Assembly (NCBI GenBank): GCA_028283605.1
Contig: JAPWKH010000019.1
Coordinates: 1 to 64,000, forward strand
Direction of reading: 5' to 3'
Length of the DNA stretch: 64,000 bases
Origin: Arachidicoccus sp.
GTDB taxonomy: Bacteria > Bacteroidota > Bacteroidia > Chitinophagales > Chitinophagaceae
The position numbers and the translations under genes were made by a program. Shown here one piece after another: positions 8,009-16,395 of this stretch (the stretch's first letter is position 1; each line of letters opens with the position of its first letter). The notes below the pieces were generated by a model. The model saw only the letters and a list, made by a program, of their open reading frames with translations. It was not told where the DNA came from and made no database searches.

Positions 8009-9181
8009 TTATACCATTACTTTTCCCGGACAATTTTTTGAGCTGCTGCCGATAATCGACTCTCCATTTTCATAAAACCAAAAAACGTTTTCTGCCGGCG
8101 CGTTTTTCCGAAGCATATCTATAGCGTTTTGATAAGAAAATTTTTCTCCGATACAAAAAATAATTGCATCGGTCTTTTCTGTTGCAAAATTTACATCCGC
8201 ATTATTTTGAATAAAACATTGTGCGCCGGGAAAGTTTCTTATACAAATATTTTTTGCCTGTTTAGCCGCAATATTATCTCCGGTTAAAAATATTTTTTCG
8301 AAAAAAACAGAAGGATTTTCTACTTTCTCAAAAGGTTTCGCAAGCGCTGCAACAGCCGATCTGCCTTTTATCGCGAGCTTTAAGAAATTTGTATAAAAAA
8401 ATCCGGAAGAGCCTTTGTAATGCTTTTCTACAAACAAACGCATAGCTCCGTAAAATATTTTTACATATTCCTTACTTGCCTTTTTTGTGCTTTCCCCTTT
8501 AAAATGAATGATAGGAAGATTACCTAAATAATAATTTTTATACCCTGTTTTTTGCAGCTCGTAACTTAAGTCTATATCTTCTCCGTACATAAAATATCGT
8601 TCATCAAAACCATTGATTTTCTTTAATAAGTCAATTCTTGCAATGATGAATGCTCCTGCCAATACATCCACATCATGTACTTTATTTTTATCTAAAAATC
8701 CCAAACTATACTTGCCGAATGTCTTAGACTTCGGAAAAATTTTTTCGATGAGGAATAATTTGTAAAAAGATGTCATTGCCGAAGGAAAAGATCGTTTGCT
8801 TTCAGGCAGAAATATTCCGCTTCCAGTAAGCAATTGAACACCCGCCGCGGCGGCATCTTTATGATTATCCAAAAAATGAATGCAATCAATTAATGTATTT
8901 TCAGCGATAATCGTATCAGGATTCAGATATAAAACATATTCTCCTTTCGCAATCCCCAAGCCTTGATTGTTGGCTTTGGCAAAGCCTGTATTTTTTTTAT
9001 TTTCTATAAATATTACCGAAGGATATTTCGGTTTAAGATAAGCAAGACTTTCATCTGATGAATGATTATCCACAACAATAATTTCGCCGTTCAGGCTTTG
9101 CATAGCTGCATTTGCAGCATGAAGGCAATGTTCCAAAAAATATTTGACGTTGTAATTGACTATTATAATGCTTAGTTCCAA
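8009..9181 (-). CDS. Family 2 glycosyltransferase
   Basis: A 390-residue GT-A glycosyltransferase of the rhamnosyl/galactofuranosyl-transferase-like type. It opens with MELSIIIVNYNVKYFLEHCL, followed by the nucleotide-binding VVDNHSSDES (about 36-45), ENKKNTGFAKANNQG, and the metal-binding LYLNPDT motif (about 84-90). MYGEDIDLSYELQK (about 198-211) is the acceptor-side acid motif. The C-terminal 110 residues form an added domain with Rossmann-like sequence (TDAIIFCIGEKFSYQNAIDMLR) seen in many Bacteroidota GT2 proteins. It probably acts on cell-surface glycans; donor and acceptor are unknown. Confidence 0.88.
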   Translation of the reverse strand: MELSIIIVNYNVKYFLEHCLHAANAAMQSLNGEIIVVDNHSSDESLAYLKPKYPSVIFIENKKNTGFAKANNQGLGIAKGEYVLYLNPDTIIAENTLIDCIHFLDNHKDAAAAGVQLLTGSGIFLPESKRSFPSAMTSFYKLFLIEKIFPKSKTFGKYSLGFLDKNKVHDVDVLAGAFIIARIDLLKKINGFDERYFMYGEDIDLSYELQKTGYKNYYLGNLPIIHFKGESTKKASKEYVKIFYGAMRLFVEKHYKGSSGFFYTNFLKLAIKGRSAVAALAKPFEKVENPSVFFEKIFLTGDNIAAKQAKNICIRNFPGAQCFIQNNADVNFATEKTDAIIFCIGEKFSYQNAIDMLRKNAPAENVFWFYENGESIIGSSSKNCPGKVMV

Positions 9182-9452
9182 TCCCTATTATTTTTAATAC
9201 AAATATCTGATGAAGATAAAAGAATAATTCCTTTCTTGACTTGCGTTTTATCGACTATGAATATACACAATCGGATTTTAATTTAAGCAGCAGCTCATTT
9301 CTTAACCAAAATTTTTTATAGGAATAAATCATTTTATATAGAAACTATTGTAATTTTACACCGCAATAAAAAAGCGCATTAACAATTTTTATTTACACTT
9401 CATTTTTTAGAAGTTGGAAAACTATCATATACAAAACGATTTATTGGCTACA

Positions 9453-9482
9453 CAGCACGAAATGTTGTGTGCTGATTTTTTT
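9453..9482 (+). terminator. Terminator-like hairpin in the arg leader
   Basis: A 6-bp GC-rich stem (cagcac 9453-9458 / gtgctg 9469-9474), a 10-nt loop and then A followed by seven T (9476-9482). No plus-strand gene lies upstream that would need it. The loop contains the ATG of the putative leader peptide, so ribosome binding there would be expected to compete with hairpin formation. Confidence 0.4.
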
Positions 9483-9536
9483 GTTGTTAACGCTCCCCGC
9501 TCCTGCTTTCCTCAATCACGACGACCGAGACATTAA
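9462..9536 (+). CDS. Possible Arg-containing leader peptide of the arg cluster
   Basis: A 24-codon ORF (ATG 9462, TAA 9534) whose product begins MLCADFFVV and ends SRRPRH. It has four Arg codons: CGC at 9498, CGA CGA at 9519-9524 and AGA at 9528, three of them in the last five codons. Position (88 bp before the first arg gene), small size and clustered Arg codons fit a ribosome-stalling leader peptide. There is no visible Shine-Dalgarno sequence, as is normal in Bacteroidota. A chance ORF cannot be excluded without comparative data. Confidence 0.4.
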   Translation: MLCADFFVVNAPRSCFPQSRRPRH

Positions 9537-9567
9537 TCATGTTTTTATTTCGGAAAATATAAAACCC

Positions 9568-9593
9568 TACTTTATGCAAAAAGGCATGAAGTA
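9568..9593 (+). promoter_or_regulatory. Hairpin between leader ORF and first arg gene
   Basis: A 10-bp stem (tactttatgc / gcatgaagta, one G-T wobble) with a 6-nt loop, 32 bp before the GTG start at 9625. It lacks a T-run, so it is not a classical terminator. It also contains a 6-codon ORF (ATG 9574 to TAA 9592). It may be part of a switching leader structure or control translation start. Confidence 0.35.
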
Positions 9594-9624
9594 AATTATC
9601 GTCATATTATCATCAAATAATCAA

Positions 9625-10329
9625 GTGGAAAATTCAAATAATATAATTGTTCGTGTGGCAAATGAAAATGACACACATTATGCACAGCAAATCGTAGATG
9701 AAATGGCTTCGTCCGCAAAGGCGCGCGGCACAGGCATTGCAAAGCGTTCTCCCGAATATGTGGCAAATAAAATATGCGAAGGCAAAGCCGTAATTGCTGT
9801 TACAACAGATGGGGCTTGGGTTGGCTTTTGTTATATAGAAGAATGGAGCCATGGAGAATTTGTTGCCAACAGCGGATTAATTGTGTCACCCGCTTTCAGA
9901 AAAAGCGGCGTAGCCAAGCGCATCAAAGAAACGATCTTTGCATTGTCGCGCAAGAAGTATCCCGACGCAAAAATTTTCGGACTAACAACGGGATTAGCAG
10001 TAATGAAAATTAACAGCGACTTGGGTTACGAGCCGGTTACTTATAGTGAATTGACACAAGACGAAACCTTTTGGGCAGGTTGTAAAAGTTGTGTAAACTA
10101 CGATATTCTGATGAGCAAAAACCGTAAAAACTGTATGTGTACTGCAATGCTTTTCGATCCGAAAGACCATTATAAGCCTGAAGAAACGCAGGAATATTTT
10201 AAAGAAAAATCGAAGATATACGAGCGTTTGCTGCGCTTCAAACAATTATTCCTGAAAAAAGATAGCGCCGAAGCGGGCGGAGGTGATATAAAGCCGAAGC
10301 ATCATTTTTTTGAAAGGTTTCATTTTTAG
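9625..10329 (+). CDS. GNAT-family N-acylglutamate synthase (BT3761 type)
   Basis: Probable first enzyme of arginine synthesis: acylation of glutamate with acetyl- or succinyl-CoA. The 234-residue protein has the GNAT fold core GLIVSPAFRKSGVAKRI (about 84-100), where R-K-S-G-V-A matches the CoA-binding (R/Q)xxGx(G/A) loop. It belongs to the Bacteroidota acetyltransferase lineage placed first in arg clusters; the Bacteroides thetaiotaomicron member BT3761 was assigned by genetics as N-acylglutamate synthase. A four-Cys set (C153, C156, C170, C172) and a His/Phe-rich tail (KPKHHFFERFHF) are unusual for a GNAT. The start is GTG 9625; an in-frame TAA lies 33 bp upstream and there is no ATG between. 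Confidence 0.75.
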   Translation: MENSNNIIVRVANENDTHYAQQIVDEMASSAKARGTGIAKRSPEYVANKICEGKAVIAVTTDGAWVGFCYIEEWSHGEFVANSGLIVSPAFRKSGVAKRIKETIFALSRKKYPDAKIFGLTTGLAVMKINSDLGYEPVTYSELTQDETFWAGCKSCVNYDILMSKNRKNCMCTAMLFDPKDHYKPEETQEYFKEKSKIYERLLRFKQLFLKKDSAEAGGGDIKPKHHFFERFHF

Positions 10330-11789: not shown

Positions 11790-12419
11790 ATGGAATGGCT
11801 TGATAAATGGAACGAAAGGTATAACAGCGAGGAGTTTGCCTACGGTAAAGAACCGAATCTATTTTTAAAAGAACAATTGGAAAAGCTAAATGCGGGAACA
11901 ATACTTTTTCCTGCGGAAGGCGAAGGGCGTAATGCAGTTTTTGCAGCCAAGCTTGGTTGGAAAGTTTCGGCTTTTGATATCAGCATCGAAGGGCAAAAGA
12001 AAGCTTTGCAACTTGCAGAAACGAATAATGTAAACATAGATTACCAAGTTGGCGAATTGCAAGCATTGGATTATGGTGTTAATCAGTTTGATGTAATTGC
12101 ACTTATCTACGCTCATTTTCCCGCAAACATAAAATCTTTATACCACAGAATATTGAACACATATATTGCGAAGAACGGATTGATTATTTTAGAGGCTTTT
12201 AGCAAAAAACATATTGATTATGTTTCTAAAAATCCTAAAGTAGGCGGACCTAAAGATATTGCTTCTTTATTCTCGATTGATGAAATAAAAAACGATTTCC
12301 CTAATTATGAAATTGTAGAATTAGAAGAAAAGGAAATAAATCTGAATGAAGGATATACGCACAATGGAACAGGTTCAGTCATAAGATTTGTCGGAAGAAA
12401 AAAGGAAAAGAATTTATAA
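11790..12419 (+). CDS. Class I SAM-dependent methyltransferase (TehB/TPMT-like)
   Basis: A 209-residue small-molecule methyltransferase. The opening [26 protein letters not shown] is typical of TehB/thiopurine-methyltransferase-like proteins. SAM motif I is [19 protein letters not shown] (about 38-56), followed by the acidic strand-2 end VSAFDIS (about 59-65) and the motif IV region [11 protein letters not shown]. The substrate is unknown. It lies within the arg cluster, 43 bp after argG, with no evident pathway connection. Confidence 0.75.
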
Positions 12420-12420
12420 T

Positions 12421-12497
12421 TTTCACACAAAGGCACAACGATATAAGCAAAGCATACAACGTTGTTTCTTTTGTAAGCTTTGTTTCGTTGTGTGAAA
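12421..12497. repeat. Nested inverted repeat upstream of argC
   Basis: Outer arms tttcacacaa (12421-12430) and ttgtgtgaaa (12488-12497) are perfect complements. Inside are caaagc (12448-12453) / gctttg (12477-12482) and the self-complementary caacgttg (about 12457-12464). The element fills the gap between the methyltransferase stop and the argC start and would fold in the polycistronic mRNA. No T-run follows. Confidence 0.55.
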
Positions 12498-12506
12498 TAT
12501 TTAGTT

Positions 12507-13500
12507 ATGATAAAAGTCGGAATCATAGGCGGAGCAGGATATACAGGCGGCGAGTTGGTAAGATTATTAATCAATCATCCGCAGGCGGAAATTGTTTTTG
12601 TAAACAGCAACAGCAATGCAGGCAATCTTATTTCTTCTGTTCATCAGGATTTGATTGGCGAAACGGATTTGAAATTTTCAGGCGAATTGAGCGATAATAT
12701 TGACGTGCTTTTTTTGTGTCTGGGACACGGCGATTCAAAGAAATTTTTATCGGAAAATACAATCCCTTCCAACATAAAAATTATTGATTTAGCGAATGAC
12801 TTTCGTTTGGCAAAAGATGCGCAGTTCGGGGAAAGAAATTTTATTTACGGATTGCCGGAAATCAATAAAACTGAAATTCAATCTGCGCAAAGCATAGCAA
12901 ATCCCGGCTGTTTCGCCACTTCCATTCAGTTGGGTTTGTTGCCTTTGGCGAAAGAAAATTTACTTGAACGAAATTTATACAACAGGCATTACAGGTTCAA
13001 CAGGCGCAGGACAAAAGCTCGCAGCAACTTCGCATTTCAGTTGGCGCGCCAATAATATTCAGGCGTACAAAACCTTGACACATCAGCATCTCGGCGAGAT
13101 ACAGCAATCATTGCATCAGTTGCAAAACAGTTTTCCGTTAGCGGAAGAAACCAGTGAAGCATTGAACTTTGTTCCCTGGCGTGGTGATTTTACGCGCGGC
13201 ATTTTTATCAGTTCAACCATCAGTTGTAAACTATCTTTGAACGATTTGAATGATTTGTACAAAGATTTTTATAAAGACGCTGCATTCACATTTGTAAGCG
13301 ATGAACCAATTTTTTTAAAGCAGGTTGTGAACACGAATAAAGCCGTTATTTATTTAGAAAAAATCGGAACGAAACTGGTTGTTCATTCCGCATTGGACAA
13401 TCTGCTGAAAGGCGCATCAGGACAGGCTTTGCAGAATATGAATTTAATGTTCGGGCTCAATGAAACGGAAGGATTGAGGTTGAAAGCAACAGGCTTTTAG
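12507..13500 (+). pseudogene. argC: N-acyl-gamma-glutamyl-phosphate reductase, broken by a +1 frameshift
   Basis: Reduces acylglutamyl phosphate to the semialdehyde with NADPH. The first frame (ATG 12507, MIKVGIIGGAGYTGGELVRLL) carries the Rossmann GGAGYTGG (8-15) and the catalytic-Cys motif ANPGCFATS (C135), then runs into unrelated residues and stops at 13055. The family sequence resumes in the +1 frame at 12964 (NEIYTTGITGSTGAGQKL) and continues to 13500 with the C-terminal domain (THQHLGEI, PWRGDFTRGIF, GASGQALQNMN). Dropping one T of the TT at 12964-12965 joins them as ENLLNEIYTTG, about 330 residues. If the indel is real, the gene is inactive. Upstream frame extends to a TTG at 12480, but MIKVGIIGG is the canonical start. 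Confidence 0.85.
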
Positions 13501-14067: not shown

Positions 14068-15235
14068 ATGAATCATTTATTCAACGTTTATCCGCTCAAC
14101 GATATTACTATCACAAAGGCTCAAGGCGCTTATGTTTGGGACGATAACGGTATTCAATATCTGGATATGTACGGCGGACATGCCGTGATTTCTATCGGTC
14201 ACACGCATCCCCATTGGGTAAAGCGGATTGAGGAGCAATTGGAACAGATTGCATTTTATTCCAACTCAGTAAAGATTCCCATTCAGGCTGAATTAGCGGA
14301 GAAATTAATCAAAGTAAGCGGCAAAGAAAATTATCAGTTATTCCTTTGCAACAGCGGCGCGGAAGCAAATGAAAATGCGTTGAAAGCTCGCATCGTTTCA
14401 CACAGGAAGAAAGAAAGTGATTGCATTTAACAAAGCGTTTCACGGACGAACTTCTTTAGCTGTTGCAGCAACAGATAATAAAAATATTGTTGCACCTGTG
14501 AATGAAACGGACAACATTATTTTTCTTCCGTTCAATGATGAAGCGGCATTGGAAAAATACTTTCATGAAAATGGGAAAGAAGTTGCAGCCGTAATTATTG
14601 AAGCGATTCAAGGTGTAGGCGGGATAAGGATTGCAGACGACTCTTTCCTGCAAAAAATCCGTTCGTTGTGCGATGAATACGGCGCGGTTTACATTGCCGA
14701 TGAAGTGCAATGCGGTTACGGAAGAAGCGGTAAATTTTTCGCTGCGGATTATGCCAATGTTGATGCGGATATTTACACAATGGCGAAAGGAATGGGCAAC
14801 GGGTTTCCTATCGGCGGCATTTTGATTGCGCCAAAATTTGAAGCGAAATACGGAATGTTGGGAACGACTTTTGGTGGTAATCATTTGGCTTGCGCGGCGG
14901 CGTTGGCTGTGCTGGAAGTAATTGAACAGGAAAATTTGATTGAGCAATCCAAGCAACGCGGCACATATTTGTTGAACAGATTAAAAAGCATTGACGGCAT
15001 TGAAAACGTGCGCGGACGCGGCTTAATGATTGGCTTTGATGTGCCTGACGCGATTAAAGATTTGCGCAAAAATTTATTGTTCAATCACTATGTGTTTACA
15101 GGCGAAGCCAAACCGAATGTGATTCGTTTGTTGCCGTCTTTGGCGATTACCAAAAAACAAGTGGATGAATTTTTGGATTTGCTGAAAGAAGAAGTGGAAA
15201 GTTTGAGTGCGAAAGAAAATATTGTAATAAATTAA
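14068..15235 (+). pseudogene. argD: N-acylornithine aminotransferase, broken by a +1 frameshift
   Basis: A class-III PLP aminotransferase converting acylglutamate semialdehyde to acylornithine. The first frame (14068-14430) has the N-terminal region and CNSGAEANENALK (about 94-106), then diverges. The second frame holds RKKVIAFNKAFHGRTSLA, the PLP-binding DEVQCGYGRSG and the Schiff-base lysine in TMAKGMGNGFPIGG, ending at 15235. Removing one A of AAA 14383-14385 gives ...NALKLASFHTGRKKVIAFNKAFHGR, the expected family sequence, and about 388 residues. All catalytic features are otherwise intact, so this is either a very recent mutation or an indel in the assembly. Confidence 0.88.
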
Positions 15236-15953: not shown

Positions 15954-16395
15954 GTGATTTTTCAAAGCGACTTTAAACGAATTAGATGAACTAAGCATTT
16001 TGTTTGATGAGTATCGTCAATTTTATAGAAAAGAATCTGATGTTGATGCAGCAAGAAATTTTCTGAAAGAAAGAATTGAACGTAACGAATCTGAAATCTT
16101 TTATACAAAAAATGATGATGGGTCAATGACTGGCTTTGTGCAACTCTATCCTATTTTTTCTTCAGCAAGAATGAAAAGAAAATGGTTGCTGAACGATTTA
16201 TATGTTCGCAAACCCTTTCGTGGTAAAGGTTTCGGCGTTGCGTTAATTGAAAGAGCAAAACAATTAGGCAGAGAAACAGGCGCTCATTCATTAGCTTTAG
16301 AAACGGAGAAAACAAATACAATCGGAAATAGTTTGTATGTAAAAACAGGATTTGAGCAAAGCTCTGATTGGAATTTTTATGATTATACACTTTAA
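15954..16395 (+). CDS. GNAT-family N-acetyltransferase, N-terminus probably disrupted
   Basis: The C-terminal acetyl-CoA fold is complete: LNDLYVRKPFRGKGFGVALIERAKQLGRETGAHSLALETEKTN contains the R-G-K-G-F-G pyrophosphate loop. The continuous frame opens only at 15958, after an in-frame TGA at 15955-15957. It reads FFKATLNELDELSILFDEYRQFY, the usual start of this family but without its initiator Met-Ile. Removing one T from T5 at 15958-15962 would give a GTG start at 15954 (MIFKATLNEL). Alternatively translation begins at TTG 16000, losing the first helix. The substrate is unknown. It lies 13 bp before the carbamoyltransferase gene. Confidence 0.6.

Follow-up and report, generated by a model that had tools for sequence, protein, structure and literature searches.

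A short reading frame whose last codons are rich in Arg stands directly before the arg cluster in the window (the whole stretch of 64,000 nucleotides of Arachidicoccus DNA analysed here), and comparison with relatives confirms, at the level of the DNA, that this observation is real and beyond chance. We consider it likely that the frame is the gene of a leader peptide in which ribosomes would stall at the Arg codons, thereby sensing arginine shortage and adjusting expression of the arg genes. The initial annotation had described a leader ORF with Arg codons preceding the arg genes, and this description holds for the window as well as for relatives in the genus and the family. The features to which the text refers are the following (class A is the group of related loci defined below).

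Positions 9351 to 9358, plus strand: promoter-like -7 box TAATTTTA, matching the motif TAnnTTT[GA] that is enriched in class A
Positions 9414 to 9536, plus strand: leader ORF of 40 codons from TTG, LENYHIQNDLLATQHEMLCADFFVVNAPRSCFPQSRRPRH and stop; all 33 class A loci have a TTG in this frame
Positions 9443 to 9476, plus strand: hairpin 1, inside the leader ORF and followed by seven T (9476 to 9482); -14.1 kcal/mol with segment 9440 to 9485 folded alone, z -3.5
Positions 9462 to 9536, plus strand: 24-codon frame from ATG, the 3' part of the longer TTG ORF in the same frame
Positions 9498 to 9500, plus strand: Arg codon 29 (CGC), Arg being conserved here in six of six genus genomes
Positions 9519 to 9530, plus strand: Arg cluster CGA CGA CCG AGA (R36 R37 P38 R39), the proposed stall site, with codons conserved in class A
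Positions 9525 to 9553, plus strand: possible hairpin 2 (CCGA...TCGG), whose loop contains the leader stop; a weak structure here, z -0.4
Positions 9568 to 9593, plus strand: hairpin 3, with no T run after it; -11.9 kcal/mol, z -5.2
Positions 9625 to 10329, plus strand: NAT, the GNAT-type acetyltransferase gene that opens the arg cluster, with start GTG at 9625

The leader frame and its surroundings

The frame noted originally, from ATG 9462 to 9536, encodes MLCADFFVVNAPRSCFPQSRRPRH and ends 88 nt before the GTG of NAT at 9625. Its four Arg codons, three of them within the last five codons, and its distance from the first arg gene were all confirmed in the sequence. No stop interrupts this frame on its 5' side as far as a TTG at 9414. 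The ATG version is probably too short, and the conserved frame would begin at this TTG, whose codon position is shared by all six genus genomes, unlike that of ATG 9462. In class A, a TTG-initiated frame was present in all 33 loci, with a length of 35-42 codons (for L048 and L065, the scripted start is a TTG four codons 5' of the aligned one). Gaps of the class A alignment inside the leader ORF are mostly multiples of three, and the differences at codon positions 1, 2 and 3 number 656, 549 and 896 (2430 codon comparisons between related pairs, which are not independent). At the sequence level this excess of third-position differences shows coding constraint on the class A leader, although part of the conservation at wobble positions could come from RNA structure instead of codons.

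The gene 5' of the arg cluster (8009-9181) is on the minus strand, therefore 9182-9624 is intergenic and has room for a promoter; the annotation had also stated correctly that no plus-strand gene upstream needs a terminator. Following NAT, the cluster contains argG-, argC- and argD-like genes, a carbamoyltransferase gene, an argB-like gene and a gene for an ArgE/DapE-type deacylase. Several of the profile matches in the cluster are below the curated cut-offs, while argB is above its own. For NAT, the Pfam GNAT matches are weak, with PF00583 at 21.1 bits, barely above the cut-off, and PF13508 below it.

We also looked for promoter-like signals. In class A, 26 of 33 loci contain the motif TAnnTTT[GA], which we take to be the Bacteroidota -7 element, at 180-161 nt 5' of the leader stop, compared with 1.0 expected, a result that counts motifs and not mapped starts. 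In class B it is enriched in two neighbouring bins (34 and 27 of 64 loci). No bin between the leader stop and NAT exceeded chance. In the window, the transcript would be expected to begin a few nucleotides 3' of the box at 9351-9358. Regarding the possibility of a transcription start downstream of 9536, raised as evidence against a leader, the only enriched promoter-like box is upstream of the ORF, again as judged from motif counts and not from a mapped start.

Conservation of the Arg tail and its codons

In the genus, NAT was found in six of six genomes, each time preceded by an Arg-tailed leader. These leaders share the core VNAPRS(F/C)FPxxRRPRx before the stop, and many of their codons differ at the wobble position. 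The initial annotation had made its reading depend on conservation of the frame and of the Arg codons in relatives; once aligned, both proved to be conserved. A profile search with the leader peptide in 244 family genomes gave strong matches only in five genus genomes (E 1e-13 or better; next best E 0.003), and the sixth, G001, was not among the matches, unlike the other five. As the leader peptide cannot be traced by sequence beyond the genus, we used the orthologous positions before NAT for the wider comparison. A pattern search for the Arg cluster in the window's own genome was too loose and was abandoned (116 matches, and 247 in a reversed control).

NAT homologs are encoded in 121 of 147 genomes of the family Chitinophagaceae, the family to which named records with NAT also point (80 loci retained out of 586). 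We used 117 of these, leaving out G047, G094, G132 and G147 (partial match, or upstream DNA missing or unretrieved). For each locus, and in real and shuffled sequences alike, we took the most Arg-rich frame among those that have 16 or more codons and end 60-200 nt 5' of NAT. Results showed at least three Arg in the last eight codons in 85/117 loci, compared with 3.4% of mononucleotide shuffles and 3/117 on the other strand; the remaining 32/117 are below three. With a threshold of at least two Arg, the count rose to 113/117 (mononucleotide shuffles 23%). Dinucleotide shuffles of an earlier, partly overlapping set, which did not include L073 (71 nt upstream only), gave at least three Arg in the tail in 1.2-4.2% of cases. 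Second NAT copies are outside these family counts; some family genomes, such as G020, G059, G064 and G100, carry a second and more distant copy. Outside the family, at least three Arg were found in the tail of 25/42 NAT loci (shuffles 4.5%; other strand 3/42), with 17/42 below three, and the tails have endings typical of their clade, for example RRIPRRR. Within the family, a further leader type has RR as its last two residues (e.g., ...PVVVRR) and was seen in L246-L249, L253, L256, L258, L263, L264, L271, L277, L302 and L303.

When 141 NAT loci were sorted by their leaders (a set without L073 and without L145, a copy of L001), 33 fell into class A, 64 into class B and 44 into neither, the last group including loci of other families. 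Class A, to which the window leader belongs, has the tail RRPRx or a near variant; it includes L050 and L071, which do not differ in their last 220 nt, and several near-identical pairs. Class B has tails such as PRPRRGC and SRPRRRPEC, and its leader stop lies in the 5' arm of a stem, CTGAYAGGACGA...CCYRTCAG, which is the sole helix in the RNAalifold consensus of the 64 sequences. Part of the leader N-terminus is common within class A, while between the classes the peptides share only Arg and Pro and differ outside the Arg/Pro tail.

The choice of codons is conserved as well. Counting back from the stop, each of the 33 class A loci has CGA at codons -5 and -4 and an Arg codon of some kind at codon -2. 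CGA accounts for only 56 of the 567 Arg codons (9.9%) in 46 genes of the window. In class B tails, 42% of the Arg codons are CGA, and in the leader tails of 25 other-family loci CGG is the commonest Arg codon (48/97).

RNA hairpins around the leader stop

The hairpins and the seven T reported in the initial annotation are present, since both 9453-9474 with its T run (9476-9482) and 9568-9593 were recovered by scan or folding. The terminator scan of 9182-9700 on the plus strand gave two overlapping hits, both at the hairpin 9453-9474 with the seven T (0.2 expected from shuffles). The interpretation of this hairpin as a terminator preceding the leader, with the start ATG in its loop, is not supported: the hairpin sits inside the leader ORF, because the conserved frame begins at TTG 9414, and among the other five genus genomes the T run is kept only in L002. 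A terminator-like hairpin with a T-rich tail inside the ORF was found in 14/33 class A loci (1.6 expected), mostly at hairpin 1. Its homologous helix was paired in 143/165 cells, compared with 54-86/165 when slid by 1-3 columns, and the pairing survives sequence change. Being 5' of the Arg codons, hairpin 1 could act as a pause signal.

Sliding-window folding gave structure peaks common to classes A and B at hairpin 1 (about 90-45 nt before the stop, mean z -1.96 in class A and -0.96 in class B) and just after the stop (hairpin 2, 45 nt from the leader stop, mean z -1.59 and -1.66). A third peak, 30-74 nt after the stop in the region of hairpin 3, was seen in class A only (mean z -1.45). In the window itself hairpins 1 and 3 are both strong, hairpin 3 standing further from chance.

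The class B hairpin, found in L041 and 63 more loci, begins at the leader stop and has a core of about 29 nt with a nearly invariant AGGACGA strand; it had no match in the window (0 in G000). We considered it as a widespread regulatory motif and rejected the idea: a loose pattern occurs in 52/147 family genomes and the hairpin in 32/117 arg loci, while the remaining matches look scattered and a reversed control also matches many genomes. Rfam gave no match in the window, three matches in 10 related loci, each under its gathering score, and none for the class B hairpin in the class B loci tested.

Proposed stalling at Arg codons, rival readings and known systems

From the ORF, its Arg codons and their choice, the promoter-like box, the hairpins and the conservation, all of which are seen in the sequence, we infer translation from the TTG, the stall, and the arginine response together with its direction. 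The message would begin near 9360, and ribosomes would initiate at TTG 9414 and translate the 40 codons through hairpin 1. When charging of Arg-tRNA is low, they would pause at CGA CGA CCG AGA before the stop, and a paused ribosome would keep the RNA open at the stop and 3' of it, allowing polymerase or ribosomes to proceed into the arg genes. With ample arginine, ribosomes would finish and leave, and the RNA past the stop would refold or be exposed to Rho, so that expression falls. Candidate outputs are Rho-dependent termination, a weak intrinsic terminator and translation. Considering that the terminator and gene-start signals are weak and that Rho is encoded in the window's genome, we commit to the Arg-codon stall as the sensor and not to one output, with Rho-dependent termination as a first guess.

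Among the rival explanations, a transcription attenuator of the his/trp type, in which the stall picks an antiterminator over an intrinsic terminator formed by hairpin 3 with a weak tail, is rather unlikely in our judgement. Hairpin 3 is very stable, and terminator-like sites between leader stop and NAT exceed the shuffles in class A (7/33 loci, including the genus loci L002, L004 and L007, with 1.6 expected), as do those in the last 130 nt before NAT across the family (17/117, shuffles 5.8). In the window, however, hairpin 3 lacks a T run and was called by neither scan, and the terminator scan found nothing after the leader stop; only 3/117 family loci pass strict criteria and class B is at chance (4/64, 3.5 expected). 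The His leaders of the same family, which are built on the attenuator plan, served as a control. We found hisG in 24 of 30 family genomes; 20/24 of these loci, the window's own genome included, have a frame with at least four His in the last 12 codons, and a terminator-like site was present in 20/24 (shuffles 1.7; 16/24 under strict criteria). Attenuators of this family are therefore within reach of the scan, and most arg leaders show no terminator. As a general output, the intrinsic terminator was rejected for most loci despite the modest excesses. Control of translation, with the stall refolding the RNA and making the NAT start accessible, seems unlikely too. With a ribosome blocking the Arg codons, the gene start of class A became slightly more open (0.508 to 0.545, Wilcoxon p 0.005; up in 55% and down in 15% of the 33 loci), but the 64 class B loci were unchanged (0.492 to 0.491) and the change in the window was near zero (0.594 to 0.611), in a comparison between free and ribosome-blocked folds only. 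Start-codon unmasking as a general output is thus unsupported. On the same grounds, the arginine switch that the initial annotation saw in the hairpins is a tentative proposal.

It is improbable that arginine itself is sensed, either by a nascent chain whose basic C-terminus arrests the ribosome or by a class B stop-codon hairpin that binds a ligand. The tails do finish a few codons from the stop and contain Pro besides Arg, and a strand AGGACGA that hardly varies among the 64 class B loci would suit a ligand-binding RNA. Against this, the residues besides Arg and Pro vary between the classes, so that the conserved sensor peptide 5' of the stall that marks an arrest peptide was not found; the window has no class B hairpin; and the fixed choice of CGA in class A favours reading of codons. 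Least probable is a conserved small protein, or an Arg-rich frame due to chance, with no regulatory role: although the third-position differences indicate coding constraint, the tails are far above shuffles and tied to the NAT gene, and the peptide outside the tail diverges strongly.

Stalling at the Arg codons, the reading that we prefer, can be considered together with the distribution of the repressor ArgR, as arginine genes are best known as its targets. The C-terminal domain of ArgR (PF02863) was found in 0/147 family genomes. In a draw of 118 genomes from the phylum, ArgR was found in 45, NAT in 47 (the same at E 1e-30 and 1e-6) and both in none, although these are not 118 independent cases, because the pattern follows phylogeny by families and amounts to few independent events. 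The exclusion fits a leader doing the work of ArgR, and in Chitinophagaceae the leader may take the role that ArgR has in other bacteria. If so, a large bacterial group without ArgR would have an Arg-codon leader in its place, kept down to a rare codon pair. A broader version is possible but tentative: a phylum-wide arginine leader of Bacteroidota would replace ArgR where it is absent and would be read through the hairpin at the stop codon, by Rho or another factor, with class B using the AGGACGA hairpin, and not through an intrinsic terminator.

Ribosome-mediated attenuation of the his/trp type is the general model for leaders of amino-acid operons, and in the His leaders of the family, as in the arg leaders, a short ORF precedes the operon and contains a cluster of codons for the amino acid that the operon produces. 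The arg leaders correspond to an amino-acid leader in the broad sense, a short conserved ORF with clustered product codons before an operon; the intrinsic terminator between leader and first gene that defines a classical attenuator is what they mostly lack, whereas His leaders of the same family have this textbook element. A further difference from the his/trp type is that the Arg codons of class A lie only 2-5 codons before the stop. The fungal arginine attenuator peptide and enterobacterial SpeFL are conserved upstream peptides that sense a ligand in arginine or polyamine control. They resemble the present case in linking an upstream peptide to such control, but they need a conserved peptide, whereas our classes share only Arg and Pro.

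In Staphylococcus aureus, rbfL is described as an 8-codon leader with rare Arg codons that senses arginine limitation by pausing; it overlaps the rbf ribosome binding site and represses rbf at low arginine (PMC13009471). The leader described here has rare Arg codons as well and would likewise act through pausing, but it has 40 codons and ends 88 nt before the arg gene. Within the same phylum, leader-peptide attenuation was inferred upstream of amino-acid operons in Flavobacterium psychrophilum, with pheA and hisG named; the section on leaders in that paper makes no mention of arginine (PMC9723704). No arginine leader of Bacteroidota was described in the open-licence papers that we searched. 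If confirmed, this leader would offer a simple test bed for gene control by ribosome stalling in Bacteroidota, and many short ORFs that now lack an annotation could readily be given one.

A few minor observations concern the DNA itself. On contig 23 of the window's own genome (L315), a His-rich leader, ...SHTHHHHFLSEG and stop, is followed by a terminator-like hairpin 5' of hisG. Within the arg cluster, methyltransferase-like and acetyltransferase-like ORFs (11790-12419 and 16000-16395, judged from their translations only) are found among the arg genes. In the window, the argC-like gene (12480-13500) and the argD-like gene (14068-15235) are both broken into two frames, through either an error of the draft assembly or real decay of the genes; their counterparts in G004 (L329), a close relative, are single frames of 346 and 386 aa.
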